DNA of 64,000 nucleotides. Origin: Halorussus sp. MSC15.2 (lineage in GTDB: Archaea > Halobacteriota > Halobacteria > Halobacteriales > Haladaptataceae). Shown in pieces: positions 36,307 through 63,446 of this stretch. The DNA lies in NCBI RefSeq assembly GCF_010747475.1, contig NZ_VSLZ01000004.1, forward strand, positions 62,001 to 126,000, in the 5' to 3' direction. The notes beneath the pieces are model-generated. The model had not been told where the DNA came from and ran no database searches. It saw nothing but the letters and a program-made list of their open reading frames with translations. How positions within the stretch are numbered: the first letter of the stretch is position 1; every line of letters begins with the position of its first letter. A program made the position numbers and the translations under genes.

Positions 36307-37062
36307 TCAGTCGCTCTCTGCCGACGTTTCGGTCGGTTCGGCGTCCGCGCTTCGACCGTCGAGCAGACGCTCGGCCCTGTCGCGGTCTTCGGGGTATCCC
36401 ACGTCCACGCGCCATCCGTCCATCCGAATCGCGTCGATGGTCCGGCCGCTCCGAATCAGGAGGTCGATGGCCTCGCTGATTTCGTACTCGCCGCGGTTCG
36501 AAGGCTGGACGAGGTGGCAGGCGTGGAAGATGGCGGGCGTGAAGGTGTAGAACCCGGTCATCACGAGGTTCGACGGCGGGTCCTCGGGCTTCTCGACCAC
36601 GTCGGTGATTTCGCCGTAGTCGTTGGTGTCACAGACGCCGTAGCGGTCGGCCTCCTCGTAGGGAACCTCCTCGGTCAGGAAGGCGGCGTCGGCCCGGTCC
36701 TCCCGCTGGCGCTTGACCACGTCGCCCAGATTCGCGTCGAAGATGTTGTCGCCCAGCATCAGCATGAAGTCGTCCTCGATGTACTCCTCGACGGTCAACA
36801 GCGCGTGGGCGAGACCCTGCTGTTCGCGCTGGTGAGCGTACGTAATCGGAATCCCGTCGAACTCGTCGCCGTAGTAGTCGATGATGTCCTGTTTCCGGTA
36901 GCCGACCACGACGACGAACTCGTCGGCGTCCAGCGCCGACAGTTCCTCGAAGCAGTGGCTCAGAATCGGTCTCCCGTCTACCTCCACCATCCCCTTCGGC
37001 TTGTCCTCTGTCAACGGGCGTAAACGGCTCCCCTCTCCTGCAGCTAAGATGACGGCTTTCAT
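36307..37062 (-). CDS. aglF: Nucleotidyltransferase AglF-like (glucose-1-phosphate uridylyltransferase)
   Basis: A 251-residue nucleotidyltransferase. The N-terminal MKAVILAAGEGSRLRPLTED KPKGMVEVDGRPIL is the pyrophosphorylase signature, followed by HQREQQGLAHALLTVEEYI, LGDNIF with the catalytic Asp, and VVEKPEDPPSNLVMTGFY. It is very like AglF of Haloferax volcanii, which makes UDP-glucose from UTP and glucose-1-phosphate for N-glycan synthesis; a related dTDP-glucose role cannot be excluded. ATG 37062 is set by the signature. It lies well away from the glycan cluster of the last 15 kb but could supply its precursor. Confidence 0.85.
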   Translation of the reverse strand: MKAVILAAGEGSRLRPLTEDKPKGMVEVDGRPILSHCFEELSALDADEFVVVVGYRKQDIIDYYGDEFDGIPITYAHQREQQGLAHALLTVEEYIEDDFMLMLGDNIFDANLGDVVKRQREDRADAAFLTEEVPYEEADRYGVCDTNDYGEITDVVEKPEDPPSNLVMTGFYTFTPAIFHACHLVQPSNRGEYEISEAIDLLIRSGRTIDAIRMDGWRVDVGYPEDRDRAERLLDGRSADAEPTETSAESD

Positions 37063-37260
37063 TCCCATCCCCAGCGAGACGACCACCCGTTCTTTGAAAT
37101 ATCTCCTGTTCAATTGAATCGGTTCGGCGCTCGGAACTTACTCCGCTGGGACCGCTGTAGTGACCGGCGCAGGAACTGACTCGTCCGAACTGCCGCCGGA
37201 ATCGTCGCCGGAGGGCGTCTCGCCCGAAGGAATAACCCGACGCACTCCGAAGGGAACGCC

Positions 37261-47915: not shown

Positions 47916-48566
47916 ATGACGGACTCGACGATTACGACCGGCGCCGTCGGCCGAACGCGAGCGCCTCCGGACCGCGTCGAACTCGTGTTCGAGACCCGCG
48001 TAGTCGAACCCGAGGTGACCGCGGCGCGACGGAGCGTCGCCCGGCGAGCGACCGAACTCCGTCGCGTCGTCGTCGACGCCGGTGCGACCGACGAGAACGT
48101 CAGGACCGCTCGGTTCCGGGTCAGACGACAACCACCCGGACACGGCGGGGACGCCGAGCGCGACCCCGAGTCTCGCCCCTTCGAGGCGACCGAGACCGTG
48201 GCCGTGACGCTCGACGACCTCGATGCGCTCGGCGACATCCTCGCGGCCGGAGTGGACGAGGCAGAAGCCGAAATCGAGGACGTGACGTTCACGTTCCGGA
48301 CCGAGACGAAGCGCGAACTGGAGCGCGAGGCAGTCACTGACGCGGTGACGACTGCACGACGGAAGGCCGAAGCCGCCGCCGCGGCGGAGGGGGCCGACGT
48401 CGGCGGCGTGCGCTCGCTGACGACCGAGGACCGCTCGCGCGCCCGTCAGTCGGGTGCCGCGCTCGGCGCGGGGGCGGCCGAGCAGTCCGGGACCGCCCCG
48501 TCGAGCGGACCCATCGACGTGACGGTCGGTGTCACCGTCGAGTACGAACTGGTCGAATCGCCCTAG
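47916..48566 (+). CDS. SIMPL-domain (DUF541) protein
   Basis: A 216-residue protein of the SIMPL family: TITTGAVGRTRAPPDRVELV FETRVVEPEVTAARRSVARR forms the first beta/alpha repeats, followed by VTLDDLDALGDILAAGVDEA and a long helix (LEREAVTDAVTTARRKAEAAAAAEGA), ending with IDVTVGVTVEYELV. No signal peptide is visible, so unlike bacterial relatives it may be cytosolic. Function is not known in archaea. It follows the ABC exporter by 52 bases. Its stop shares four bases with that of the convergent PL14-like gene (CTAG). Confidence 0.82.
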   Translation: MTDSTITTGAVGRTRAPPDRVELVFETRVVEPEVTAARRSVARRATELRRVVVDAGATDENVRTARFRVRRQPPGHGGDAERDPESRPFEATETVAVTLDDLDALGDILAAGVDEAEAEIEDVTFTFRTETKRELEREAVTDAVTTARRKAEAAAAAEGADVGGVRSLTTEDRSRARQSGAALGAGAAEQSGTAPSSGPIDVTVGVTVEYELVESP

Positions 48567-50053
48567 AGGGAGATGGACTGGTTCCGCTTCGTGACGCTCC
48601 CGGCCGCGTCCTTCACGCGGAGGGTCACGTCCATGGTGGTCCCCGCGGGGAACTGGAACAGTTCCCATCCGGAGGCACTGGACCCGCTCACGTCGTTCAC
48701 TGCGAAGTTCACGTCGGTGGAGCCGTCGTTGACGACCGCCTCGACCGTGTCGAGGTCGCCGTCGGCGTCGGCCGCGGCCCACTTGACCGAGAACATCCGG
48801 TCGCCGCCGAGCTTGTTACTCGTAGACACGTCGAACCGCTCGACGCTCGGCGCGGCCGACGGCAGGAGTTCCTGCACGCCGACTTCGGTCCCGTCGTACC
48901 GAATCGTCCACTTGCTCTCGTCCAGACTCATCGAGGTGAAACTCCCGTCCACGTAGTAGGAGTCGCCGTAGCCGTTGCCCGACTTTCCGGTCACCGTCAC
49001 CGTGCCGTCGCCGTTGTCGGTTATGGAGTCGTTGGTCTCCGCGGCCTTGTCGCCCGCCGACGTGTTCTTGGTGACGCTCCCCTCGACGGTGAACTCGTAC
49101 TGCACGTCCGAGGTGTTCGACCCCGCGACGAGTTCGAGCGGTTTCCCCTGCGTCTGGTCGCCGCTACCGGACGTTCCGCTCCCCGAGATGTCCGGCATCT
49201 GGGTCGTGCTGAGTGCCCAGTTGTCGAAGTAACACGCCTGGTCCTGAGGCGCAGGATTGCTCCCGCCGTGCCAGACGTGCCAGATGTAGTTGATGCCGTC
49301 TTCGGGGTGGTTGGTGAACCGCATCGAATGCTCGTCGGTGGTCTTCTGACCGTCAATCCACTGTTCGAGGACGCCGTCACGGTTAGCCGAACCCCCCGAA
49401 GTCGTGTTGAGCTTCAGGTGTTGGTCGATACGGTGCCAATCACCTTTCGTCACGCGAGTCGCGCCAAACGTGTCGCCGTAGGTACCGTCCATGTCCATGT
49501 GGTACACGTAATTACCGAGTGTAATCTCTGAACCGGAAGCAGTACTATTGTAGAAGGTAGCTCGCGCGCTCCACCCAGTCCCGTCTGACGGATCGCCACC
49601 GTGACCCGTACCGCTCTCGATGTTCCCCGGACCCGGCAGTTTCTTTCGGTGGTCACCGTTCTCGAAGTCCTGATCGAATCGTACCCAGTAGCTCGAGTAC
49701 AATTCGGTCGTGTTCTCCGACAGGTACCCCGCTTCTACGGGGTCGACGCGTGCAATCATTCCGTCGAAGTAGCCCTCGGGGAAGCCCACTCTCATTGCGT
49801 TGCTCCCGACCTTCGAGGGGGACTCAACGACCGAATCCTGCCAATTCCCTTCGTCGTGGACGTCCGTGAAGTGTTCACGATACGTACCGTCTTCGAACGG
49901 TTCGTGGAGGAGTGTGTCGCTCGACTGAGCCGCGGTTCCCGCGCTCGTTGCGACAACGGAAGCTGCGGCCGCACCCGCTAGCCGCAGGTAACTTCGTCGG
50001 TCGAGTAGCGAACGGTCTGCGTTCGTCTCTTCTGCCATTTCGTCGCGTGCCAT
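48563..50053 (-). CDS. Tat-exported polysaccharide lyase (PL14-like) with C-terminal beta domains
   Basis: A 496-residue secreted protein with a Tat signal (DRRSYLRLAGAAAA). The catalytic region (about 45-290) is a jelly-roll like family-14 polysaccharide lyases: KLPGPGN, GTGWSARATF, YVYHMDMDGTYGD, DWHRIDQHLKLNT and DGVLEQWIDGQK. It is followed by a Ser/Gly-rich linker (about 292-310) and two further beta domains. Such enzymes cut glucuronate- or mannuronate-rich polymers. A paralogue sits at 57753, at the other end of the cluster. The stop overlaps that of the SIMPL gene. TATA-like box 25-34 bases before ATG 50053. Confidence 0.75.
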   Translation of the reverse strand: MARDEMAEETNADRSLLDRRSYLRLAGAAAASVVATSAGTAAQSSDTLLHEPFEDGTYREHFTDVHDEGNWQDSVVESPSKVGSNAMRVGFPEGYFDGMIARVDPVEAGYLSENTTELYSSYWVRFDQDFENGDHRKKLPGPGNIESGTGHGGDPSDGTGWSARATFYNSTASGSEITLGNYVYHMDMDGTYGDTFGATRVTKGDWHRIDQHLKLNTTSGGSANRDGVLEQWIDGQKTTDEHSMRFTNHPEDGINYIWHVWHGGSNPAPQDQACYFDNWALSTTQMPDISGSGTSGSGDQTQGKPLELVAGSNTSDVQYEFTVEGSVTKNTSAGDKAAETNDSITDNGDGTVTVTGKSGNGYGDSYYVDGSFTSMSLDESKWTIRYDGTEVGVQELLPSAAPSVERFDVSTSNKLGGDRMFSVKWAAADADGDLDTVEAVVNDGSTDVNFAVNDVSGSSASGWELFQFPAGTTMDVTLRVKDAAGSVTKRNQSISL

Positions 50054-51212: not shown

Positions 51213-52165
51213 ATGAACGCAGACATTTCACGACCCGAGAAGATAGGCGCTGTTCAAAAAATATTGACATATAGGTCGCTCTCGATGGAAGTGATAATTG
51301 TTCTGGGAGTCGCGGCTGGACTCCTCGAAGGCATCGGACTGAGTTCCCGAGTTCCGATAATCGACGCCATCCAGTCTAGCATGTACCCGTTGGGCAAGGG
51401 CGGCGCAGTCGAGATGTTCGCCCGCACTTACACGGCGATGGGAGTTCCGTTCACGCTCGATATCATCGTGGTGGGTCCCGTGGTCGTGGTGGGAGCCAAG
51501 TACGCGTTCGACTTCGGCGCGAGTGACGAAACGAGTGGAGACTTCCGCAGTGTGGTCGATTCGTCCGTGAACGCCACGGTCCGACTCCGGCGTAACGAGA
51601 CGGCGGCCAACAACGTTTACCAGTTCGCCAGCGCCATCTCGATATTCGTGCTGATATACCTCGCAGTCACGTTCACGTCGAAGAGCCTCGGGATGCTGGG
51701 CGTGTTCCTGTTCGCCATATTCAGACTCGCCCCGATTTCAAGTATGCTCAACCATCGGGGCTACCCATCGGAAGGCAACCTCTCGAATGGCAAGTCCGTC
51801 GTCTCGGTACTGAATCGGATGTACTTCCCCGAGAAGGCCAAGCTAACCGCCGACCACGGCCAACTCTCGGGCGACGTCGTGACGTCGGTTCCAATCCGAG
51901 AGGGTACGGCCATCTCGGCGTTCACATCGACACGCTCCTCGAAGTGCGGTTGGTCTGCGGACACGACGCCCACAAGCAAATCGTCGCGGAGTCGCCCGTG
52001 GACGCGCCCTACCCGGACCTGCAACCCCACGACGCGAGTGAACGTACCGGGGAGACGCTCCGGAACCTCGGCTATTTGCCGGAGAGAGGCCGTGGGACTC
52101 CCGATAAGCGAACGGCGAACGCTTCCAGAACCGACGGTCTCCCAGAAACCGTTAGTCCCCGCTGA
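51213..52165 (+). pseudogene. Decayed duplicate of the ABC flippase-type transporter, fused to an unrelated C-terminal fragment
   Basis: The first ~225 codons match the transporter at 55843-57639: MNADISRPEKIGAVQKIL versus MSGNISRGEKVAALKELV, then FTLDIIVVGPVVVVGAKYA, NNVYQFASAISIFVLIYLAV, and LNRMYFPEKAKLTADHG versus LSRMYLPDDGEITVDG. Two large in-frame deletions are visible: about 145 residues of the membrane domain, and the region from the linker through most of Walker A. After about 51900 the original frame turns Ser/Arg/Thr-rich, while another frame reads GYGHLGVHIDTLLEV...LRNLGYL and ends at 52163, similar to the C-terminal part of haloarchaeal sulfatases. It cannot make a working transporter. 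Confidence 0.75.
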
Positions 52166-52179
52166 GTTAGACGGACGAT

Positions 52180-53400
52180 ATGTCTGATAAATTTTCGGCG
52201 GGCGACACGTCAGAGGGGGTCTCGACGACCGATGAGGCTGACAGCGGTTCGACGACCGACGCGCCGGACGGCGTCTCGACCGCCGACGCCGCCGAGAGCG
52301 ACCCGACGGTCCTCGGGTTCACCGACCTGCGCCCGGAGGAACTGGTCGGACCGCTCGACGCCGTCGATTCGGGGAGTCGCGTCCTCTCGTTCCCGGAGGC
52401 GGGTCCGGCCGCGAAACTCGTTCACTCGGTCGTCGGCGGGGTCCGCGTCCTCCGGGAGTCGGACGTCGATGCGATACTGCTCTACAACGGAACCGGCGTG
52501 CTGGGTCTAGTCTCGGTCGTCCTCAGTAGACTCTTCGGCGTCCCCCTCCTGTTGCGGGTGAACGGGGACATCTACAGGCAGCACGCAGACAGGATGCGCG
52601 AACTGTGGGAGACAGACCGGTACGGTCGGACCGCGGTCTTCCTCATCTACCACCTCCTGACGAGACTGACGTATCTGGCCGCGAGCGGTTACGTCACCGT
52701 CTCGGAGGACCTGCGCGACCGACTCGATTCCGAATCGAGCTACCCCGACCGGACCGCGGTCAGTGCGCACAATCCGGTCGATGCGTCACGATTCGCCGAC
52801 AGCGACGGGAGAGAGGCCGTCTGCGGCGTGGACCTCGACGGGACGCGAGTGCTGTTGACCGTGACGAACCTGAACTACGAGGGGAAGTATCGCGGCGTGG
52901 TCGAAATCGTCGAGGCTGTCACTGACATCCTCGCCGAACGCGAGGACGTGGTGTACGTCGTCGCGGGTGACGGAACTTACTTCGAGCGGTTGGCCCGGTA
53001 CGTCGAGGCGAACGTTCCCGAGGAGGTGGCCGAGCGAATCCTCCTCCCGGGCTACGTCGAGGAGGTCCCGCCGGTGTTCGCCGCGGCCGACGTGTTCGTC
53101 TACAAGTCCTACATCGATGGCTACCCCAACGTGGTTCTGGAGGCTCAGGCCGCCGGACTCCCCGTGGTCGCGAATCCGGACTGCGGTATCGACGAGCAGG
53201 TCGCCGACGGCGAGACCGGGACGCTCGTCTCGGCGGCCGACCAGTCGGCGTTCGCCGACGCGGTGGACCGACTGCTGACCGACGAGAATCTTTGCGCGAG
53301 GGTGGGTCGGAGCGCGACCGAGCGTGTCCGGGCGCGGAACTCGAACGAGCGCGTCGGTCGCGAGTTGTTGGACGCGGTCGCCCGGATTCTGCGGTCGTAG
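52180..53400 (+). CDS. GT4 glycosyltransferase
   Basis: A 406-residue glycosyltransferase of the GT-B fold. An acidic, Ser/Thr/Asp-rich N-terminal extension (1-40) precedes the acceptor domain (VLLYNGTGVLGL, VPLLLRVNGDIYRQH). The nucleotide-sugar-binding domain has VYVVAGDGTYFERLAR, VFVYKSYIDGYPNVVLEAQ and AAGLPVVANPDCGIDEQVAD, where the Glu pair (VLEAQ...GIDEQ) is the GT4 E-x7-E-like site. It likely adds a sugar to the growing surface glycan. It starts 14 bases after the decayed transporter and is the first intact glycan gene on this strand after the methyltransferase. Confidence 0.88.
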   Translation: MSDKFSAGDTSEGVSTTDEADSGSTTDAPDGVSTADAAESDPTVLGFTDLRPEELVGPLDAVDSGSRVLSFPEAGPAAKLVHSVVGGVRVLRESDVDAILLYNGTGVLGLVSVVLSRLFGVPLLLRVNGDIYRQHADRMRELWETDRYGRTAVFLIYHLLTRLTYLAASGYVTVSEDLRDRLDSESSYPDRTAVSAHNPVDASRFADSDGREAVCGVDLDGTRVLLTVTNLNYEGKYRGVVEIVEAVTDILAEREDVVYVVAGDGTYFERLARYVEANVPEEVAERILLPGYVEEVPPVFAAADVFVYKSYIDGYPNVVLEAQAAGLPVVANPDCGIDEQVADGETGTLVSAADQSAFADAVDRLLTDENLCARVGRSATERVRARNSNERVGRELLDAVARILRS

Positions 53401-53631: not shown

Positions 53632-54399
53632 ATGAAAGCAGTCATGTTAGGGGCTGGGCAGGGGTCTCGCTTGCATCCTCGGACCGACGGTAATCCGAAA
53701 CTGTTCCTCGACGTGGACGGGGAGACGATATTCGAGCGCCAACTCGACGCGCTCGCACCGCTGGTCGAGGAGGGACTGGTAGACGAGCGCGTCGTCGTCG
53801 TGCTGGGATACGGGTTCACCGAGGACACGCTCGACGGTCGGAGTCGAACCGAGAAGATAGACGAGTACGTCCGTATCGACGACCGGTTCGAGTTCGAGGT
53901 CGTCGTCCTCCCGTACTGGAACGCGGTGGAGAACGCCGCCTCGGCGCTCGCGGGTCTCAACGTCGTGGACGACGACGCGCTGTTGCTCTGCGGCGACGTC
54001 ATCACGACGGCGGAAGTACTCTCGACGGTGGTCGAGCAATTCCGCGACGACCACCGCCCGGACGGATACAGCACCGTCGCGGCCATCGAAGGCGTGCAGG
54101 ACGAGATGACCGCCGTCCAGTGGGACGAGTCCGGAACCGTCACCGACTACGGCGCTATCGAGGGTCATCAGGAGGCGGGCATCTTCGTCCTGAACCGCGA
54201 CCACTTCGAGACTGCCGGTCGGGTACTGAGTTCGAACGCGGTCGAAGACTGGTTCCCCATCGTCTTTCCGGCGGTGCCGTCGAAGGCCGTGACCATCGAC
54301 CCGCGGCAGCACGTCGAGATAAACACCGAGGACCACTTCCGGGAGGCGGTGCGGAGTCTCCCGCTCGAACCGACGGACAGGAGCGAAATCGAACTGTGA
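53632..54399 (+). CDS. Sugar- or polyol-phosphate nucleotidyltransferase
   Basis: A 255-residue nucleotidyltransferase. MKAVMLGAGQGSRLHPRTDG NPKLFLDVDGETIFERQLDA is the signature with the Gly-rich loop and Lys of the pyrophosphorylase fold; LLCGDVITT carries the catalytic Asp, and EAGIFVLNRDHF and PRQHVEINTEDHF form the C-terminal side. Its closest type by eye is the CTP/UTP phosphocholine- or sugar-phosphate group rather than AglF (shorter, different core). Since a glycerophosphotransferase-like gene follows, it may make a CDP-polyol or CDP-sugar donor. ATG 53632 is fixed by the signature. Confidence 0.8.
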   Translation: MKAVMLGAGQGSRLHPRTDGNPKLFLDVDGETIFERQLDALAPLVEEGLVDERVVVVLGYGFTEDTLDGRSRTEKIDEYVRIDDRFEFEVVVLPYWNAVENAASALAGLNVVDDDALLLCGDVITTAEVLSTVVEQFRDDHRPDGYSTVAAIEGVQDEMTAVQWDESGTVTDYGAIEGHQEAGIFVLNRDHFETAGRVLSSNAVEDWFPIVFPAVPSKAVTIDPRQHVEINTEDHFREAVRSLPLEPTDRSEIEL

Positions 54400-54408
54400 C
54401 GCTCACTG

Positions 54409-55680
54409 ATGAGTGACCCACTCACCGACGCGGTCGGCGCGGTCGTCTCGTACCTGCTCCGGCCGCTCGTCTTCCTCCTGTCGCATCTCGTGCCGCGTAA
54501 CGACCGCGTCTGGGCGTTCACCGCTGACCAGAGCGGTCGATTCGCGGAGAACGGTAAGTATCTCTTCCTCCACGCCGTCGGGCGGTCCGACGAGATTCGT
54601 CCGATATGGCTGGCCCGCGACCGCGAGGTGTTGACGGAACTGCGGGGGCGCGGCTACGAGACCTACCACGTAGACGACTGGCCGGGCAAATACGTCGCGT
54701 TGCGTGCCAGATGCGTGTTCACGTCCCACGGAGTTCCGTTCTGGCAGTACATCGGGGGCGCGACGGTCGTTCAGATGTGGCACGGGAACGCGCTGAAGCG
54801 ACTCGGCAACGACATCGAGTCGGGCACTTCGTTGCTCGTCCGGTCGCACCGGAAACACGTCATCCGCAACTGGGACAGATTCGTGACGACCGGCACCGCC
54901 GACGCACTCGCGCCGTTCACCTCGGCGTTCGACGTCACTCCCGAGCAGGCGCTTCCGACCGGCTACCCCCGCGACGACGTGTTCTTCGAATCGGTCGAGG
55001 GAGCGACGGTCGGTCTCGGCGAGTACGACCGACTCCGGGAGTTGAGCGAGGAAGCCACCCTGATATCGTACATGCCGACCTCCCGCAACGCGTTCGAGGG
55101 CGACCAGGGGACCATCGACGGGAGCGAACTGGGAATCGAGGAACTCGACCGGACGCTGGTCGAACACGACGCGTACCTGCTCCTCAAGGCCCATCCGTGG
55201 TCGAACGTGGAACTCGACGAAGCCGAGTTCGACCGCGTGATTCTGCTCCCCTCCGACCTCGACATCTACCCGGTGCTCCCGCTGGTGGACGTGCTCGTGA
55301 CCGACTACTCGTCGATTTACTTCGACTACCTCCTGCTCGATAGACCGGTGGTGTTCTACGCCTACGACCTCGACGCGTACCGCGACGCCCGCGGGTTCTA
55401 CTTCGACTACGACGAGGTGACGCCGGGACCGAAACCCGAGACCTCGGACGAACTGCACGAGTGGCTACGGCACTTCCTTCAGGGTGACGACGGGTTCGAG
55501 GACGAACGCGCGCGAGTCCGAAATCGGTTCTTCCGGCATCAGGACGGTGGCGCGTCCGAGCGCATCTACCGCCACGTCCGGGACGAGGTTCTCGACCTCT
55601 CGGCGGACAGGTCCGATTCGGTCGAGGACGGCACGCGACGCGACACCGAACGGAGTGTCGAACCCGGGCGGTCGCTGTGA
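54409..55680 (+). CDS. CDP-glycerol glycerophosphotransferase-family (TagB/TagF-like) protein
   Basis: A 423-residue enzyme. Features of the family: an amphipathic N-terminus, [48 protein letters not shown] (the base and acceptor region), the C-terminal [14 protein letters not shown] and [21 protein letters not shown] that bind the CDP-activated donor. Such enzymes attach glycerol- or ribitol-phosphate to glycan primers in bacterial wall teichoic acid. In archaea they are rarer and their product is unknown. It follows the nucleotidyltransferase by nine bases in what is clearly one operon. Confidence 0.85.
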
Positions 55681-55842: not shown

Positions 55843-57639
55843 ATGAGCGGGAATATCTCTCGGGGGGAGAAGGTAGCAGCACTCAAAGAACTCGTCTACT
55901 ACAAGCCGCTCCTCATGGGGGTGATAATGACGTTGGGAGTCGTCGCGGCGGTCCTCGAAGGTCTCGGCTTGAGCTTCCTCATTCCGATAATCGAGATTAT
56001 CCAGTCCGGCGGCGAACCCGCCGCGGAGGGCGGCATCGTGGGCGGGTTCGCCCGCGTCTACTCGTTCGTGGGCATCCCGTTCACGCTCGAAACCATCGTG
56101 GCGGGCGTCATCGTGGTGATGGGCGTCCGGTACGCCTCGGGGTTCGGCGTGCTGTGGCTCGGACAGGCGCTCCGGAGCTACTACGAGGGCGACCTGAAAC
56201 GGCAGGCGTTCGACTCGGCACTCGGCGCTCGAATCGCGTACTTCAATCAGAACGGCTCCGACGAGATACTCAACGCCATCGTCACGCAGTCGAAGTACGC
56301 GGCCCGGAGCGTCTCCTACATGGTGAAGATTCTAGAGCGGTCGCTGCTCGCGTTGATGTACGTGGCTATTGCGCTCTACCTCGCGCCGGTGCTGACGCTG
56401 GTGACTGGGACGGTGTTGGCCGCCGTCGCCATCGGAATCCGACAGGGACTCGAATCGGGGTACTCGGTCGGTGACCGCGTCACCGACGCCAACGAGCGGA
56501 TTCAGGAGTCGGCACAGGCCGGGACGCAGGGCATTCGCGAGGTGAAACTGTTCGGCCTGACCGAGGAGGTCCGCCAGAACTTCCACAGCGCCGTGGATAC
56601 GTTCGTGAACTCGACGGTGCGACTCCGGCGGAACGAGTCGGCGGTCAACAACGTCTACCAGTTCGCCAGCGCCATCTCGATATTCGTGCTGATATACCTC
56701 GCGGTCACGTTCACGTCGATGACCCTCGGGATGCTGGGCGTGTTCCTGTTCGCCATGTTCCGACTCGCCCCCATCCTGAGCGTGCTCAACCGCCGGGTCT
56801 ACCAGTTGGAGGGGAACCTCCCGCACGTCATCAGGACCAACAACTTCGTGGCGGAACTCGAACAGAATCAGGAACCGACCACCGGAAGTGAGACGGAGGT
56901 CGACGAGGTTCGGGAGATAGTGTTCGACGACGTCTCGTTCTCGTACGCGAACGACGAACCGGTCCTCGACGGCGTCTCGTTCAGCGTCTCCAAGGGCGAG
57001 TTCGTCGCGTTCGTGGGCCAGTCCGGGGCCGGGAAGTCCACCATCGTTTCGTTGCTGAGTCGGATGTACCTCCCAGACGACGGGGAGATAACCGTGGACG
57101 GTCTCCCAATCGCCGACATCGACCTCGAGACGTGGCGGTCGAAACTCGCCATCGTCAGGCAGAACCCCTACGTCTTCGACGACACCCTCTGGTACAACCT
57201 GACCGTGGGGAACCGGTCGGCGTCGCGCGACGAGGTCGAACGCGCCTGCGAAATCGCGCAGGTCAACGAGTTCCTCGACTCGCTGGCGGACGGCTACGAC
57301 ACCGAACTCGGCGAGGAGGGCGTCAGACTGTCCGGCGGCCAGAAACAGCGAATCGCGCTGGCGCGTGCGCTGTTGAAGGAGGACGCCGACGTCCTCGTAC
57401 TGGACGAGGCGACCAGCGACCTCGACTCGGTGACCGAACAGCGCGTGCAGGCCGGAATCGAGTCGATGGAGCGCGAGTACGCGGTCATCACGATAGCCCA
57501 CCAACTCTCGACCATCCGGAACGCCGACGAGATAAACACTATCGAAGACGGTCGCATCGTCGAGCAGGGGAGCCACGACGTCCTCCTCGACAACGAGGGC
57601 ACCTACGCCGACCTCTACAGTCGTCAGTACTCCGACTGA
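55843..57639 (+). CDS. ABC transporter, membrane-ATPase fusion (PglK/MsbA flippase type)
   Basis: A 598-residue half-transporter. Six membrane helices (about residues 20-330, with a long extracellular loop near AEGGIVGGFARVYSFVGIPF) are followed by a nucleotide-binding domain with Walker A GQSGAGKST, signature LSGGQKQR, Walker B VLVLDEATSDLDS, and H-loop (IAHQLST). It acts as a homodimer. In a glycan cluster the likely task is flipping a lipid-linked oligosaccharide or polymer across the membrane, as PglK does. It has an almost identical but broken copy at 51213. It follows the glycerophosphotransferase-like gene by about 160 bases and has its own promoter. Confidence 0.92.
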   Translation: MSGNISRGEKVAALKELVYYKPLLMGVIMTLGVVAAVLEGLGLSFLIPIIEIIQSGGEPAAEGGIVGGFARVYSFVGIPFTLETIVAGVIVVMGVRYASGFGVLWLGQALRSYYEGDLKRQAFDSALGARIAYFNQNGSDEILNAIVTQSKYAARSVSYMVKILERSLLALMYVAIALYLAPVLTLVTGTVLAAVAIGIRQGLESGYSVGDRVTDANERIQESAQAGTQGIREVKLFGLTEEVRQNFHSAVDTFVNSTVRLRRNESAVNNVYQFASAISIFVLIYLAVTFTSMTLGMLGVFLFAMFRLAPILSVLNRRVYQLEGNLPHVIRTNNFVAELEQNQEPTTGSETEVDEVREIVFDDVSFSYANDEPVLDGVSFSVSKGEFVAFVGQSGAGKSTIVSLLSRMYLPDDGEITVDGLPIADIDLETWRSKLAIVRQNPYVFDDTLWYNLTVGNRSASRDEVERACEIAQVNEFLDSLADGYDTELGEEGVRLSGGQKQRIALARALLKEDADVLVLDEATSDLDSVTEQRVQAGIESMEREYAVITIAHQLSTIRNADEINTIEDGRIVEQGSHDVLLDNEGTYADLYSRQYSD

Positions 57640-57752: not shown

Positions 57753-59027
57753 ATGAAACCGACGCGACGACGGGTGCTTCTCGGTCTCGGCGCGCTCGCG
57801 GGCGGCGCGGGTCTCACCTACGCGGTGCACGACGACGGTCGAACGGGGAGCGACGAACCTCACGAGCGGGCACCGAAGACGAGGCGAACGATGCGACCGA
57901 CTCGACGCGGTCCGAACTTGACCACCGAAGGAGGGGCGGAGACGACGGGCGAGCGCGGGGCGGAGACGACCGAAGACGCGGCCGAGACCACCACCGAAGA
58001 CGAGGACGAGACGACGAGCGAGCGCGACGTGGACTTCCCCGAGCGATTCGTCGAGTTCTCGTTCGACCGGCGGAACTCCCTCGGGAAGTTCACGGAGCGC
58101 GACTTCGAGTCCAACCTCGAAATCGACGACCGCGGTATCTCCTCGGGGTCGGACTCGCTTCAGGTGACGTTTCAGAAGGGCAGTCACTACGGCACGTCGC
58201 TCCACTACAAGTTCGACGAGGCGGGGTACGCCGACTCCGAGGAACTACACGCACGCTACTACCTCCGGTTCTCGGAGACGTTCGACCTGCCGCGCGGTGC
58301 CGGCGGGAAGTTACCCGGCCCGGCCGGGACGTACGGGCGGGCGGGATGGGGCGGCCGTAGAGCGGACGGAACGAACGGGTGGTCCGCGCGGATGTACTTC
58401 ACCCCGAGCGACGCCCCCGAGCGCCCGATTCAGCTATCGAGCTACGTCTACCACGCCGAGATGGACGGTCGCTACGGCGACATCTTCGAGTGGGACGAGT
58501 CGGCGGCGGGGCGTCTGGAACTCGGTAAGTGGCACCGAATCGACAACTACATCCGATTGAACACTCCCGGCAAGAACGACGGCGTGTTGAGGGGGTGGGT
58601 GAACGGAGAGCGCACGCTCGACGTGACCGACCTTCGATTCCGCGACGTGTGTTGGCTCAGAATCAACCAGTACTGGTTCGACTGCTACTGGGGCGGGTCG
58701 TCCCCCTCTCCCACCGACAATCGGGTGTACTTCGACCGAATGACGCTGTTCTCCGAACACCAACATCCGAACGAGTGGGCCGGGACCGAGACGGGGATGA
58801 CGCCCAGACCCGAGACGTCCGAGGGGACTACCGGACCCGTGGACGCTGAGACCACTGCAACGAACGAAGCGACCGACGCTGACGCTGCGAACACGACCGG
58901 CGGGGAGACCACCCAGAGGACCACGGAGGCGACGGAGACGAGGGAAGCGGAGACGACGATGGAAGCGGAGACGACGAACGAAACGGCCGAGCGGACCACG
59001 ACGGCCGACGAGCAGACGACGAAATAG
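57753..59027 (+). CDS. Tat-exported PL14-like protein with Thr/Glu-rich ends
   Basis: A 424-residue paralogue of the protein at 48563. It begins with a Tat-like RRRVLLGLGALAGGAGLTYA signal (no lipobox Cys) and a disordered Glu/Thr linker (about 40-95). The catalytic jelly-roll (about 98-350) has GGKLPGPAGTYG, GTNGWSARMYF, YVYHAEMDGRYGD and KWHRIDNYIRLNT. The tail (about 355-424) is Thr/Glu/Ala-rich, possibly O-glycosylated or a surface linker. It probably cleaves or binds the surface polymer made by this cluster. ATG 57753 is chosen on the signal peptide; in-frame sequence upstream is Arg-rich. Confidence 0.72.
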   Translation: MKPTRRRVLLGLGALAGGAGLTYAVHDDGRTGSDEPHERAPKTRRTMRPTRRGPNLTTEGGAETTGERGAETTEDAAETTTEDEDETTSERDVDFPERFVEFSFDRRNSLGKFTERDFESNLEIDDRGISSGSDSLQVTFQKGSHYGTSLHYKFDEAGYADSEELHARYYLRFSETFDLPRGAGGKLPGPAGTYGRAGWGGRRADGTNGWSARMYFTPSDAPERPIQLSSYVYHAEMDGRYGDIFEWDESAAGRLELGKWHRIDNYIRLNTPGKNDGVLRGWVNGERTLDVTDLRFRDVCWLRINQYWFDCYWGGSSPSPTDNRVYFDRMTLFSEHQHPNEWAGTETGMTPRPETSEGTTGPVDAETTATNEATDADAANTTGGETTQRTTEATETREAETTMEAETTNETAERTTTADEQTTK

Positions 59028-59153: not shown

Positions 59154-60443
59154 ATGAGAACCGTAATCGCGTTCCTGCGGGCCGCGTTGGCGGGGTCACT
59201 GTTGACGGTACTGTACACGAACCTCCTCTATCCGGTGTCGGTCGGACTGGTCGGCGCGATACGGGGACCGGAGTCCAGTGACTCGGGGGATGGGGCATCA
59301 CCCGGCGGAGAGTCCTCGGGCGCGTCGTCGGCGAGCGCCGAATCGACTGACTGCGGGCCGGAAGCATCCCTCCCGAGCGTGTCGCTCGTCGTCGCGGCGT
59401 ACAACGAGGAGGACGTCATCGCCGACAAGATAGAGAACAGTCTCGCGCTCGACTACCCCGACGAGAAGTTGGAAATACTCGTCTTCTCGGACGCGTCGAG
59501 CGACGCCACCGACGACATTGTCCGGTCGTACGAAGGCGTCGAACTGATTCGGGTCGAGGGTCGGGTCGGCAAAACCGAGTGCCAGAACGTCGTCGCCGAC
59601 CGGGCCGACGGCGACATCCTCGTCTTCTCGGACGCCAACAGCATGTACGAACCCGACGCGATACGCCGACTCGTCGCCCGATTCGACGACGACGTGGGGT
59701 GCGTGGTCGGGGGTCTCCACTACGATAACGTCGGCGACAACACCGGCGGCATCCCCGTCTACCGGCGGTTCGAGCGGTTCGTCCAGCGCGCGGAGTCCCG
59801 GACCGGGTCCATCGTCAAGGGGAACGGTGCCATCTACGCGGTTCGGGCCGACGACTACGTCCCGCTCGCGCCCGACCTGATGAGCGACTTCGCCGAACCG
59901 ATGGCGATTCGGTCGCTGGGCAAGCGGGTGACGTTCGCGCCCGACGCGGTGGCGCTCGAACGCGCTCGCGACGACCTCGACTCCCAGCGCGACGCCGAGA
60001 ACCGAATCACGACGCGGTCGTGGCACACGCTCTCGTCGTTCACCGAACTGCTGAACCCCGCCGAGTACGGCACGTACTCGGTCAAACTCTGGTCGCGGAC
60101 GGTGCTGCTGTGGCTCACGCCGGTCTTCCTCGGCGTCGCCGGGTCGTCGGCGCTCCTGCTAACGCTCCTCGAACCGACGCCGCTCCACCTCCTCGTTGCC
60201 GGAGGGTTCGGGGCGTTCGCGCTCTCGGTGGGCGTCACCGCCGGGGCCAAGCGGCGCGGTCGGTCGGTCCCGCTTCCACTGCAGGCGACGTACTACTTCG
60301 CGCTGCTCAACTACAGTCTGCTCGTCGGACTCTCGAACTTCCTCCGGGGTCGCAACGTCGTGACGTGGGACACCGACGAGCGGACCGACGAGACCGACGC
60401 GAGCGAAGCCAGCGAGACCGGCGCGGTCGACCCGCAGGACTGA
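59154..60443 (+). CDS. Membrane GT2 glycosyltransferase
   Basis: A 429-residue protein. An N-terminal helix (FLRAALAGSLLTVLYTNLLYP) is followed by a Gly/Ser-rich loop. The GT2 catalytic domain has SLVVAAYNEEDVIADKIENS, the DxD-like ILVFSDANSMYEP, and MSDFAEPMAIRSLG as the acceptor-Asp region. Two C-terminal helices (about 320-350 and 385-405) follow. The layout resembles processive or polymer-extending GT2 enzymes (CESA-like without the QxxRW motif, which is not seen). It probably adds sugars at the membrane to the cluster's glycan. ATG 59154 is chosen from the promoter spacing; the next gene starts 45 bases after the stop. Confidence 0.85.
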   Translation: MRTVIAFLRAALAGSLLTVLYTNLLYPVSVGLVGAIRGPESSDSGDGASPGGESSGASSASAESTDCGPEASLPSVSLVVAAYNEEDVIADKIENSLALDYPDEKLEILVFSDASSDATDDIVRSYEGVELIRVEGRVGKTECQNVVADRADGDILVFSDANSMYEPDAIRRLVARFDDDVGCVVGGLHYDNVGDNTGGIPVYRRFERFVQRAESRTGSIVKGNGAIYAVRADDYVPLAPDLMSDFAEPMAIRSLGKRVTFAPDAVALERARDDLDSQRDAENRITTRSWHTLSSFTELLNPAEYGTYSVKLWSRTVLLWLTPVFLGVAGSSALLLTLLEPTPLHLLVAGGFGAFALSVGVTAGAKRRGRSVPLPLQATYYFALLNYSLLVGLSNFLRGRNVVTWDTDERTDETDASEASETGAVDPQD

Positions 60444-60487: not shown

Positions 60488-61693
60488 ATGCCGGACAACC
60501 GAGAGCGAACCGGAGGGTCGCGGGTGACTTCGTCGTCGGCGACCGGTGGCGAACAGAAGGCGTCCGAACCGGGGGTTTCGTCGGCCGACGACGTGCGCAC
60601 GTCCGGGGATGCACCGAGCGCCGAGGCGCAGGTGTTGCACCTGCCGCACTTCGACTCGAACCCGTATCAGAAGAATCTGGCCGAGGCGCTCGAAGCGCGC
60701 GGCGTCTCGGTCACGCTGGCGAGCGGGTATCCGCTGGAGACGATGCGGACGGTCGCGTCCGAGGGGATTCCGGACGTCCTCCACCTCCACTGGATTTCGC
60801 CGTACCTCGTCGGCGACGGGCGACTCCGGAGCGCGGCGAAGGCCGCGGTGTTCCTCGCGGGACTGTTCGTCGCGCGACTCCTCGGCGTCCGAATCGTCTG
60901 GACCGCCCACAATCTAGTCGAACACGAGCGCAGGCACCCGACGTTCGAGCGATTCTGCAAACGATTCCTCGTGCGTCGCGTCTTCGACCGGGTGTTCGTC
61001 CACTGGTCGAGCGCGCGACTCCGACTGGTCGAGGAGTACGGCCTTTCGGGCGAGGAGCGCGCCGACCTCGTGACGATTCCTCACGGCCACTACGTCGAGG
61101 ACTACGAGAACGACATCGACCGCGAGACGGCCCGAAACCGACTCGGTCTCTCCGACGACGCGTTCGTCTTCCTCTACTTCGGTCGCATCCGCCCGTACAA
61201 GCAGGTGCCCGCGCTGGTCGAGGCGTTCGGCCGACTCGACGCTGCCGACGCGCGCCTCGTGGTCGCCGGGAACGCGACCGACGACGAGTTGCACGAGCGG
61301 GTCGCCTCCCGGGCCGCCGCGGACGACCGGGTCCGGTCGGTCCTCGAATACATCCCCGACGACGAGGTACAGACGTACATGAACGCGGCCGACGCCGTGG
61401 TCTTCCCCTTCCGCGATATCTTCACGTCCGGCAGCGTCCTGCTCGCCATGTCGTTCGGAAAGGCGGTCGTCGCACCCGAGTCGGGGTGTCTCCCGGACGT
61501 GGTCGGCGAGTCGGGCGGCGTCCTCTACGACCCCGACGACCCTGTGGGCCTGCCGACCGCCATCCGGAAGGCGCTGTCCCGGGACGTGGCGTGGATGGGT
61601 CGTCGCAACTACGAGACCGCGGTCGGCTACTCGTGGGACGACGTGGCCGAGCGAACCGCCGCCGCCTACGCCGAACTGCTGGACTCGCGCTGA
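60488..61693 (+). CDS. GT4 glycosyltransferase
   Basis: A 401-residue GT-B protein. After an acidic, disordered N-terminus (1-35), the acceptor domain reads VLHLPHFDSNPYQKNLAEAL and VLHLHWISPYLV, then VRIVWTAHNLVEHE. The donor domain has VFLYFGRIRPYKQVPALVEA, VLEYIPDDEVQTYMNAADAV and DIFTSGSVLLAMSFGKAVVA PESGCLPDVV, a GT4-type site. It probably acts at an earlier step of glycan assembly in the cytosol. It is convergent with the formyltransferase fusion gene, 28 bases apart. Confidence 0.87.
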   Translation: MPDNRERTGGSRVTSSSATGGEQKASEPGVSSADDVRTSGDAPSAEAQVLHLPHFDSNPYQKNLAEALEARGVSVTLASGYPLETMRTVASEGIPDVLHLHWISPYLVGDGRLRSAAKAAVFLAGLFVARLLGVRIVWTAHNLVEHERRHPTFERFCKRFLVRRVFDRVFVHWSSARLRLVEEYGLSGEERADLVTIPHGHYVEDYENDIDRETARNRLGLSDDAFVFLYFGRIRPYKQVPALVEAFGRLDAADARLVVAGNATDDELHERVASRAAADDRVRSVLEYIPDDEVQTYMNAADAVVFPFRDIFTSGSVLLAMSFGKAVVAPESGCLPDVVGESGGVLYDPDDPVGLPTAIRKALSRDVAWMGRRNYETAVGYSWDDVAERTAAAYAELLDSR

Positions 61694-61721: not shown

Positions 61722-63446
61722 CTACGGACCCAAATTCCGGGCTATCTGGTCGGCGGTCCGCCGCAGGTTGTAGGCGTTCCAGACGAATCGGTGACCGTCG
61801 AGGAGCGTGAGACCGCCGCCCGACGAGATGGTGTGTCGCCCGGCCGACAGCGGACCGTCCTCGTTCGGTGCGATGTCGGCGACCGCCTCCTCCGAGAACG
61901 CTGTCGGCGTGAGTTCGGTCACGCGATTGACGACGATTCGGTGCCCGTACCACTCGGCGCAGTCCTGCGTCGGCCGATAGAGGTCGCCGTCGGTCACCCA
62001 CGGCGTGCCCGCCGGTCTGGCCGCCCGAACGTCGGTCTTGACCGGGTTGTTCGCGTGTGGACGCCACGGACCGGTCAGTTCGGGGGCGTGCCAGAGGTAG
62101 AGGTTCGTGTTCACCATGTCGTCGCGCTTCGTGAAGAAGAGCCACCACCTGCCGTCGTGACGGACCGGCGTCGGGTCCACGCCCGCGACGTCCGGTATCA
62201 GGGTTCGCTCGCGCTCCCACTCGTCGGGCGATTCGACCCGGTACAACGCTATCTCGTTCGCCTCGTGCATCTCGGGCGTCGCGTAGAGGTCGCCCTCGTG
62301 TCTGAAGAGGTACGGGTACGAGAGGTGGTAGGGTCTGTCGAGTGCGGTTCCGACGGTGGGGTCGGGGTCGTCGTAGTTCAGGTAGGAGATGTTCCCGGAG
62401 TCGTCCTCGTAGGAGTACTTCTCGAAGAAGACGAAGGTGTCGCCGTCTATCGCCGCGGGGAAGGGGTCGGCGACGAACTCGGTGTCGGTCGGCGAGGAGT
62501 ACCACTGGACGGTGGGCGACCGCTCGTCGTCCACGAAGTCCCGGACCGACGCGTCCGACACGCCGATGCTCCACTTCTCGTACCCGCGCGCCACCTCCCG
62601 GAGCATGGCGGCGGCCCGCCGCGCGTCGAACCGCAGAATCTGGGACGGACTCGGCGACCGATAGACGGGCGCGTCCGTCTTCGAGGGGGGCTGTTCCAGA
62701 TACCCCGCCTCCCCGTTCAGGATGTCGGTGGCGACCTGCGCGGGCCACCGCGAGGTACCGGACAGCGTCCGGTCCAAGTTCGTGCTCCACGAGAACGGCA
62801 CCGTGGGGAAGTACCCCCGTCGAAGGATGACGCCGCCGTCGAGGCGCTCGGTCAACCGCTGTAACACCGCCCCTGTCACGGAGTCGTCCTCGTATATCTC
62901 CCAGAAACACGGCGGCAGGCCCCTGTACTTCTGCTCGTCGCCGTGGTGGAACGACCAGACGCCGTACCGCGACGCGTCGAGAATCTCGCCCTTGATGATT
63001 CCGAAGGCGAACCGCAGAACGAAGTCGAGGTCGAACGACCGAATTCGGTCGACGTCCGACGCCGAGAAGTACTCGGCGTACCCCTCCTCTCGCACGTCGC
63101 AGTGGATTCGCTCGACGCCGTCGAGTTCGGCGGACAGGTCCACCGGCTTTCGCGACTCTCCGTCGCCCGCGACGTGGTGCTTGTACAGTCGCCACGTCAC
63201 CTTGTTCACCGTCTCCCTCGCCCCCTCGGACTCCACCGTCTCGACTACGGACCGCGCCATCTCCGCGACCCGGCCGAGACCCGACTCGGGAGTCGCGTCG
63301 TTCACCCGTCGCTCGTCGACGACGAGGAGTCTCGGCCGGACGTTCTCCACGTCGAGCAGGTGTCGAACACACTCGGCCTGCCAGTGGTCGAACGTCGTGC
63401 CGGTACACATGATGCCGAAGTCCAGCGTCGAACTGTCCTCGCTCAT
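61722..63446 (-). CDS. Formyltransferase domain fused to a GINT1-like propeller glycosyltransferase
   Basis: A 574-residue protein. The N-terminal half (about 1-265) resembles formyltransferases acting on sugar nucleotides: LRFAFGIIKGEILDASRYGV, SFHHGDEQKYRGLPPCFWEI (in the place of the 'HPSLLPxYRG' motif), and LDGGVILRRG. The C-terminal half (about 300-574) is a five-bladed propeller-like region of the GINT1/GH43-like type: EFVADPFPAAIDGDTFVFFE, YLFRHEGDLYATPEMHEANE, TPVRHDGRWWLFFTKRDD, and GGGLTLLDGHRFVWNAYNLR. GINT1 is a glucosamine inositolphosphorylceramide transferase in plants. Here the protein may modify an amino sugar or transfer it in surface glycan synthesis. ATG 63446 starts in MSEDSSTLDFGIMCTG. 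Confidence 0.75.
   Translation of the reverse strand: MSEDSSTLDFGIMCTGTTFDHWQAECVRHLLDVENVRPRLLVVDERRVNDATPESGLGRVAEMARSVVETVESEGARETVNKVTWRLYKHHVAGDGESRKPVDLSAELDGVERIHCDVREEGYAEYFSASDVDRIRSFDLDFVLRFAFGIIKGEILDASRYGVWSFHHGDEQKYRGLPPCFWEIYEDDSVTGAVLQRLTERLDGGVILRRGYFPTVPFSWSTNLDRTLSGTSRWPAQVATDILNGEAGYLEQPPSKTDAPVYRSPSPSQILRFDARRAAAMLREVARGYEKWSIGVSDASVRDFVDDERSPTVQWYSSPTDTEFVADPFPAAIDGDTFVFFEKYSYEDDSGNISYLNYDDPDPTVGTALDRPYHLSYPYLFRHEGDLYATPEMHEANEIALYRVESPDEWERERTLIPDVAGVDPTPVRHDGRWWLFFTKRDDMVNTNLYLWHAPELTGPWRPHANNPVKTDVRAARPAGTPWVTDGDLYRPTQDCAEWYGHRIVVNRVTELTPTAFSEEAVADIAPNEDGPLSAGRHTISSGGGLTLLDGHRFVWNAYNLRRTADQIARNLGP

Follow-up and report, generated by a model that had tools for sequence, protein, structure and literature searches.

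Phosphopolyol chemistry of the teichoic type is regarded as a bacterial trait, and the question raised by this locus is whether a haloarchaeon carries a version of it. A first-pass annotation of a 64,000-nucleotide stretch of the Halorussus sp. MSC15.2 genome (here called the window) described a nucleotidyltransferase gene at 53632 and a gene for a CDP-glycerol glycerophosphotransferase-family protein at 54409, nine bases apart. It likened the two to a bacterial pairing that makes an activated polyol phosphate and polymerizes it, called the second enzyme TagB/TagF-like, named TagD, TagF, and TarI for comparison, and suggested a phosphopolyol or phosphosugar surface polymer. Here, we investigated both proteins, their island, and their relatives in other haloarchaea.

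A selected gene pair in a surface polysaccharide island

The positions and families of the two genes agree with that annotation. The nucleotidyltransferase (NT, P0001; PF12804) has a stop codon ending at 54399, and the ATG of the transferase (P0002; PF04464) is at 54409. NT orthologues are found in H. aquaticus (94% identity, on the 434-kb plasmid unnamed1) and H. salinisoli (84%). Compared with two Halorussus orthologues, the NT has a dN/dS of 0.14–0.15 and the transferase one of 0.22–0.30, showing purifying selection on both. Neither protein reaches an NCBIfam equivalog cut-off. A viral origin was rejected, as a pattern scan found no related proteins in viral contigs.

The reported setting of glycosyltransferases, a flippase, and Tat-exported lyase-like proteins also holds up, as GT4 and GT2 glycosyltransferases, an MsbA-type exporter, and PL14-type twin-arginine proteins are all present (Table 1). 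The island on the H. aquaticus plasmid has matching genes in the same order, save that its counterpart of 51213–52187 is intact. In the window, this segment has no Pfam match and was rejected as a working island member; by blastn, it matches the exporter gene at 86% and 72% and the intact H. aquaticus gene (L066:7330-8304) at 80.5%. The window's own island contains no glycerophosphodiesterase (GDPD) gene, and the annotation of the 48-kb island in H. aquaticus lists no teichoic linkage-unit enzymes, TagGH exporter, or peptidoglycan anchoring genes.

Past the window end (C4:126001 onward, L065:3734-10565) lies a nonulosonic acid locus with NeuB, DegT aminotransferase, SDR, and alpha-2,8-polysialyltransferase-family genes. 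With these genes nearby, the island glycan may also carry nonulosonic acids. The protein encoded by the adjoining gene at 61722–63446 (reverse strand) combines a GINT1_N domain with an N-terminal half that, on visual inspection, resembles a formyltransferase, and it might serve in sugar formylation.

Table 1. Features of the island around the gene pair, in window positions
Feature	Position	Strand	Basis
PL14-like secreted protein, twin-arginine motif	48563..50053	-	PF21294, E 5.9e-8; N-terminus RRSYLRLAG
Pseudogene: two ABC exporter gene fragments, then 3' remnant of an alkaline-phosphatase-superfamily gene	51213..52187	+	blastn
GT4 glycosyltransferase	52180..53400	+	PF13692/PF00534
LicC/IPCT-like nucleotidyltransferase (NT, P0001), 255 aa, predicted CTP:polyol-phosphate cytidylyltransferase	53632..54399	+	PF12804, AlphaFold, Foldseek
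TagF/TarF-family transferase (P0002), 423 aa, predicted CDP-polyol phosphotransferase	54409..55680	+	PF04464, TagF 3l7i, WHG, Foldseek
MsbA/HepA/PglK-like ABC exporter, candidate flippase for lipid-linked product	55843..57639	+	PF00005/PF00664; NCBIfam HepA, MsbA, and PglK below cut-off
PL14-like secreted protein, twin-arginine motif	57753..59027	+	PF21294, E 3.3e-19; N-terminus MKPTRRRVLLGLG
GT2 glycosyltransferase	59154..60443	+	PF00535; PGAP name of H. aquaticus orthologue
GT4 glycosyltransferase	60488..61693	+	PF13692/PF00534

The transferase has the TagF fold and catalytic residues

PF04464 matches residues 22–390 of P0002 with an E value of 2.4e-68 (231 bits against a cut-off of 22.1) and covers positions 3–365 of the 367-position profile. 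P0002 itself matches TagF (PDB 3l7i) at E 2.7e-25. A search of the PDB with the P0002 family profile returned TagF (E 6.6e-52), TarL (1.3e-39), Bcs3 (2.3e-31), and Cps3D (5.6e-30), and nothing else at E ≤ 0.01. The same four proteins lead a Foldseek search with the predicted structure of P0002 (pLDDT 81.5), where TagF is matched at E 2.7e-22 and a TM score of about 0.70. The next folds are UDP-GlcNAc 2-epimerases at E 5e-10 and worse, a gap of at least four logs.

In an alignment of ten homologues, H125 (within a WHG motif), H262, S301, S302, and D306 of P0002 are invariant. Both TagF catalytic histidines are therefore kept, as is the DYSS...D segment of the TagF family. The predicted structure begins with a hydrophobic helix (residues 4–25), as would be expected of a membrane-associated enzyme. 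P0002 thus shares its fold, both histidines, WHG, DYSS...D, and the N-terminal helix with the TagF, TarF, and TarL wall teichoic acid transferases, but it is only 20–23% identical to them in fold alignments and its host is archaeal. Cps3D and Bcs3, TagF-like capsule polymerases of Gram-negative bacteria, likewise have a CDP-polyol transferase domain amid capsule-type glycan genes; they are 1100-aa multidomain polymerases, whereas P0002 has a single domain. Sequence and model together give good support, at the level of family function, for P0002 as a TagF-type CDP-polyol phosphotransferase. The glycerophosphotransferase fold and histidine site on which the original annotation depended were both found.

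The nucleotidyltransferase resembles LicC rather than TagD or TarI

The NT matches PF12804 over its cut-off (E 6.9e-10), and its AlphaFold model has a pLDDT of 91.5. Foldseek places LicC first, then PntC and IPCT, with generic sugar NTs so close behind that the fold is not enough to assign the nucleotide. Identity to the solved enzymes matched by Foldseek is below 25%, too low for the matches to fix either nucleotide or substrate. LicC, PntC, and IPCT are all CTP enzymes, and the NT probably uses CTP as well.

The GxGxR...PK and GD motifs of the NT (A8, G9, G11, R13, P22, K23, G121, and D122) are invariant in 19 homologues, and so are N101 and E229/N231. Where LicC has NNFYSL and IPCT has GNGYSL, the NT has ENAASAL, with the same or similar segments across its clade. 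Its C-terminus reads HVEIN, in which EIN fits the EID of NNxYSL-type NTs (W-V-E-I-D beside other PF04464 genes). Most NTs adjoining other haloarchaeal PF04464 genes have the canonical NNxYSL, with EID or EVD where that pattern was found. Given the altered motifs of its clade, the NT may differ in substrate from LicC and IPCT. Its length is near that of LicC.

The partner of the TagF-like protein is the part of the TagD/TagF/TarI comparison that did not stand. No ORF with both HxGH and RTxGIS[TS] was found in the window or the related loci scanned, which rejects a TagD-type identity. A TarI/IspD identity was rejected because PF01128 scores 21.3 bits against a cut-off of 27. The pair differs from wall teichoic systems in this partner and in its surroundings, where we noticed no linkage-unit or peptidoglycan-anchoring genes in the island. 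To our knowledge, archaea have no peptidoglycan.

The pairing recurs across haloarchaea

PF04464 proteins over the cut-off occur in 95 of 392 haloarchaeal genomes, about a quarter, some of them in a divergent short form. We surveyed 12–20 kb around each of 50 full-length PF04464 genes. An NT lies within 3.5 kb in 46 of the 50 loci and within 600 bases in 23; ten loci had been picked via the NT itself, and without those the NT is within 3.5 kb in 36 of 40. A GDPD gene is found within 1.5 kb of the PF04464 gene in 17 of the 50, and such genes are rare, at about one to two per genome.

Several arrangements can be told apart. In arrangement A, the type seen in the window and also in Halococcus morrhuae and Halarchaeum, a P0001-type NT adjoins or lies near the transferase. 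Natrarchaeobius has a P0001-type NT beside a weak, short PF04464 homologue. (The related-sequence scan of named genomes used 8 queries and gave five named hosts.) In arrangement S, an NNxYSL-type NT is the immediate neighbor of the PF04464 gene in 15 of 17 loci; across 2000 shuffles within loci, the mean was 2.1 and the highest count 8, and the adjacency of NT and PF04464 genes is beyond chance. A small alkaline-phosphatase-superfamily protein with the motif LLDACRxD, barely seen by Pfam, recurs next to the pair in about half of the A and S islands (L068:4477-5421, L069:12624-13508, L093:11537-12391, and others).

Arrangement D (17 loci) consists of a transferase, a GDPD gene, and then a fusion of about 560 aa between an NNxYSL-type NT and a HAD-IIA phosphatase. 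The genome studied here has such an operon of its own (L063:15155-19435, equal to C1:1111154-1115434). A gene for a TIM-barrel sugar-phosphate isomerase-like protein is near the operon in 12 of the 17 loci. In class B operons, a P0001-type NT is joined to a divergent TagF-like protein that has RHG in place of WHG. Most of these operons also include a GDPD gene, which follows the NT in eight of ten operons examined. One of these, too, is in the same genome (L064:10029-12499, on C1), with an overlapping NT start and a GDPD gene. Sequenced plasmids of Halobaculum and Haladaptatus also carry a class B TagF-like protein with a P0001-type NT. An EEP-family phosphatase/nuclease gene adjoins the class B operon in some other species.

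In a phylogeny of 59 transferases, supported branches require no fewer than five changes of the window-type NT label. P0001-type NTs thus stand beside several separate transferase lineages, and their association with the transferase was formed or retained more than once.

Proposed function and alternatives

We regard it as probable that the product of the NT is a CDP-polyol, with CDP-glycerol the likeliest, and that P0002 places polyol phosphate on a glycan made and exported by the island. The NT would join CTP and a polyol phosphate, with glycerol phosphate (sn-1 or sn-3) the most likely one. P0002 would be held at the membrane through its N-terminal helix. Its WHG histidine, the likely base in TagF according to a 2024 study (PMC11666461), would act as the base, and the second histidine would act on the pyrophosphate as one or more polyol phosphates pass to the glycan. 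The acceptor is probably built by the island's GT4 and GT2 glycosyltransferases. As a candidate flippase, the ABC exporter may then carry the product, linked to lipid, to the cell exterior, and the result would be a surface polysaccharide that contains phosphodiesters.

Glycerol phosphate is favored because the GDPD genes of arrangements D and B and the phosphoglycolate phosphatase-related phosphatase of arrangement D fit glycerol-phosphate turnover. The rarity of GDPD genes, together with our noticing no biosynthesis gene for another polyol beside the pairs, points the same way.

It falls only a little short of an even chance that the pair merely decorates an ordinary exopolysaccharide, adding a single polyol phosphate per repeat or at the chain end, with no phosphopolyol polymer. 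P0002 has one transferase domain, with no TPR and no second GT domain, and its best named NCBIfam model is that of TarF, a glycerol-phosphate transferase, with a score below the cut-off. TarF adds short stretches only. Several island glycosyltransferases could build the glycan backbone. The length of P0002 is not decisive, however, since short PF04464 proteins can work with other proteins. As worded, the polymerizing step of the first-pass annotation is not supported; its placement of a CDP-polyol-type pair in a surface polysaccharide island was borne out.

Somewhat unlikely, in our estimate, is that the NT activates another phosphorylated alcohol (inositol-1-phosphate, phosphocholine, aminoethylphosphonate, ribitol-5-phosphate, or glycerol-2-phosphate) whose group P0002 then transfers. 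LicC, PntC, and IPCT being the nearest NT structures speaks for it, as does a bacterial pair of the same two families on plasmid pDCAR1 of Solidesulfovibrio carbinolicus (L134 3923-5820). There, a PF04464 gene overlaps a LicC-type gene named "phosphocholine cytidylyltransferase family," which makes choline or another alcohol possible. That pair is uncharacterized and, unlike the window pair, has no glycan island around it (9 kb). Against such an alcohol, the GDPD linkage points to glycerol, and we noticed neither a choline kinase gene nor a phosphonate or ribulose-phosphate reductase gene in the island or recurring around its relatives.

The reading of the NT as an ordinary sugar-1-phosphate uridylyl- or thymidylyltransferase that neighbors the transferase by chance is improbable. 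Its best NCBIfam N-terminal match is AglF (E 1.7e-14, far below the cut-off). However, the AglF-type motif is absent from the NT, while a true AglF-type uridylyltransferase gene sits elsewhere in the window (36307–37086), with QGLAHAL at the NNxYSL place and a different C-terminus. The pairing is also conserved far beyond the shuffles and across several transferase lineages. Sequence features thus disfavor an NT restricted to hexose-1-phosphate with UTP or dTTP. It is very improbable that P0002 transfers hexose phosphate, as related GT-B enzymes do (PMC11666461). The same study assigns WHG to glycerol-phosphate polymerases and QHG to hexose-phosphate transferases. WHG and not QHG is present in P0002 and, of the 40 haloarchaeal PF04464 proteins that showed the motif pattern, in 38; TagF-group folds also lead the Foldseek matches of P0002.

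A possible haloarchaeal counterpart of bacterial chemistry

Returning to the CDP-polyol reading, the pair is a real and conserved module of CDP-polyol type in haloarchaea, a variant of the bacterial chemistry, whose family-level function is well supported. The claim of an undescribed pathway needs narrowing. The enzyme families are already known in bacteria, the plasmid pair described above is one example, and many haloarchaea have homologous pairs, to which NCBI has already given generic names. A description of such a pathway in haloarchaea was not found in the open-access literature (most subscription journals fall outside this scope).

In archaea more widely, the 2010 genome paper of Methanobrevibacter ruminantium noted homologues of teichoic-acid genes and suggested phosphate-rich teichoic-like polymers (PMC2812497); this organism is a pseudomurein methanogen, with a cell wall different from that of our haloarchaeal host. 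Lysates of Archaeoglobus (A. fulgidus) have a CTP:glycerol-phosphate activity preferring glycerol-1-phosphate, for which the enzyme was still unidentified as of 2021 (PMC8262930). Relatives of the P0001 NT could be its source, and they supply named candidates for the glycerol-phosphate cytidylyltransferase of archaea. A broader and rather doubtful extension is a general haloarchaeal CDP-glycerol pathway, which would draw on archaeal glycerol-1-phosphate through a LicC-type cytidylyltransferase family of its own, place glycerol phosphate on surface glycans, and recycle it through the linked glycerophosphodiesterase.

Teichoic-acid-like chemistry may therefore exist in archaea with no known record of it. 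Because the pair is conserved and has the fold and catalytic residues that this chemistry calls for, an archaeal counterpart can be tested directly. If the proposed function is true, a phosphate-bearing polymer would be added to the known components of the haloarchaeal envelope.
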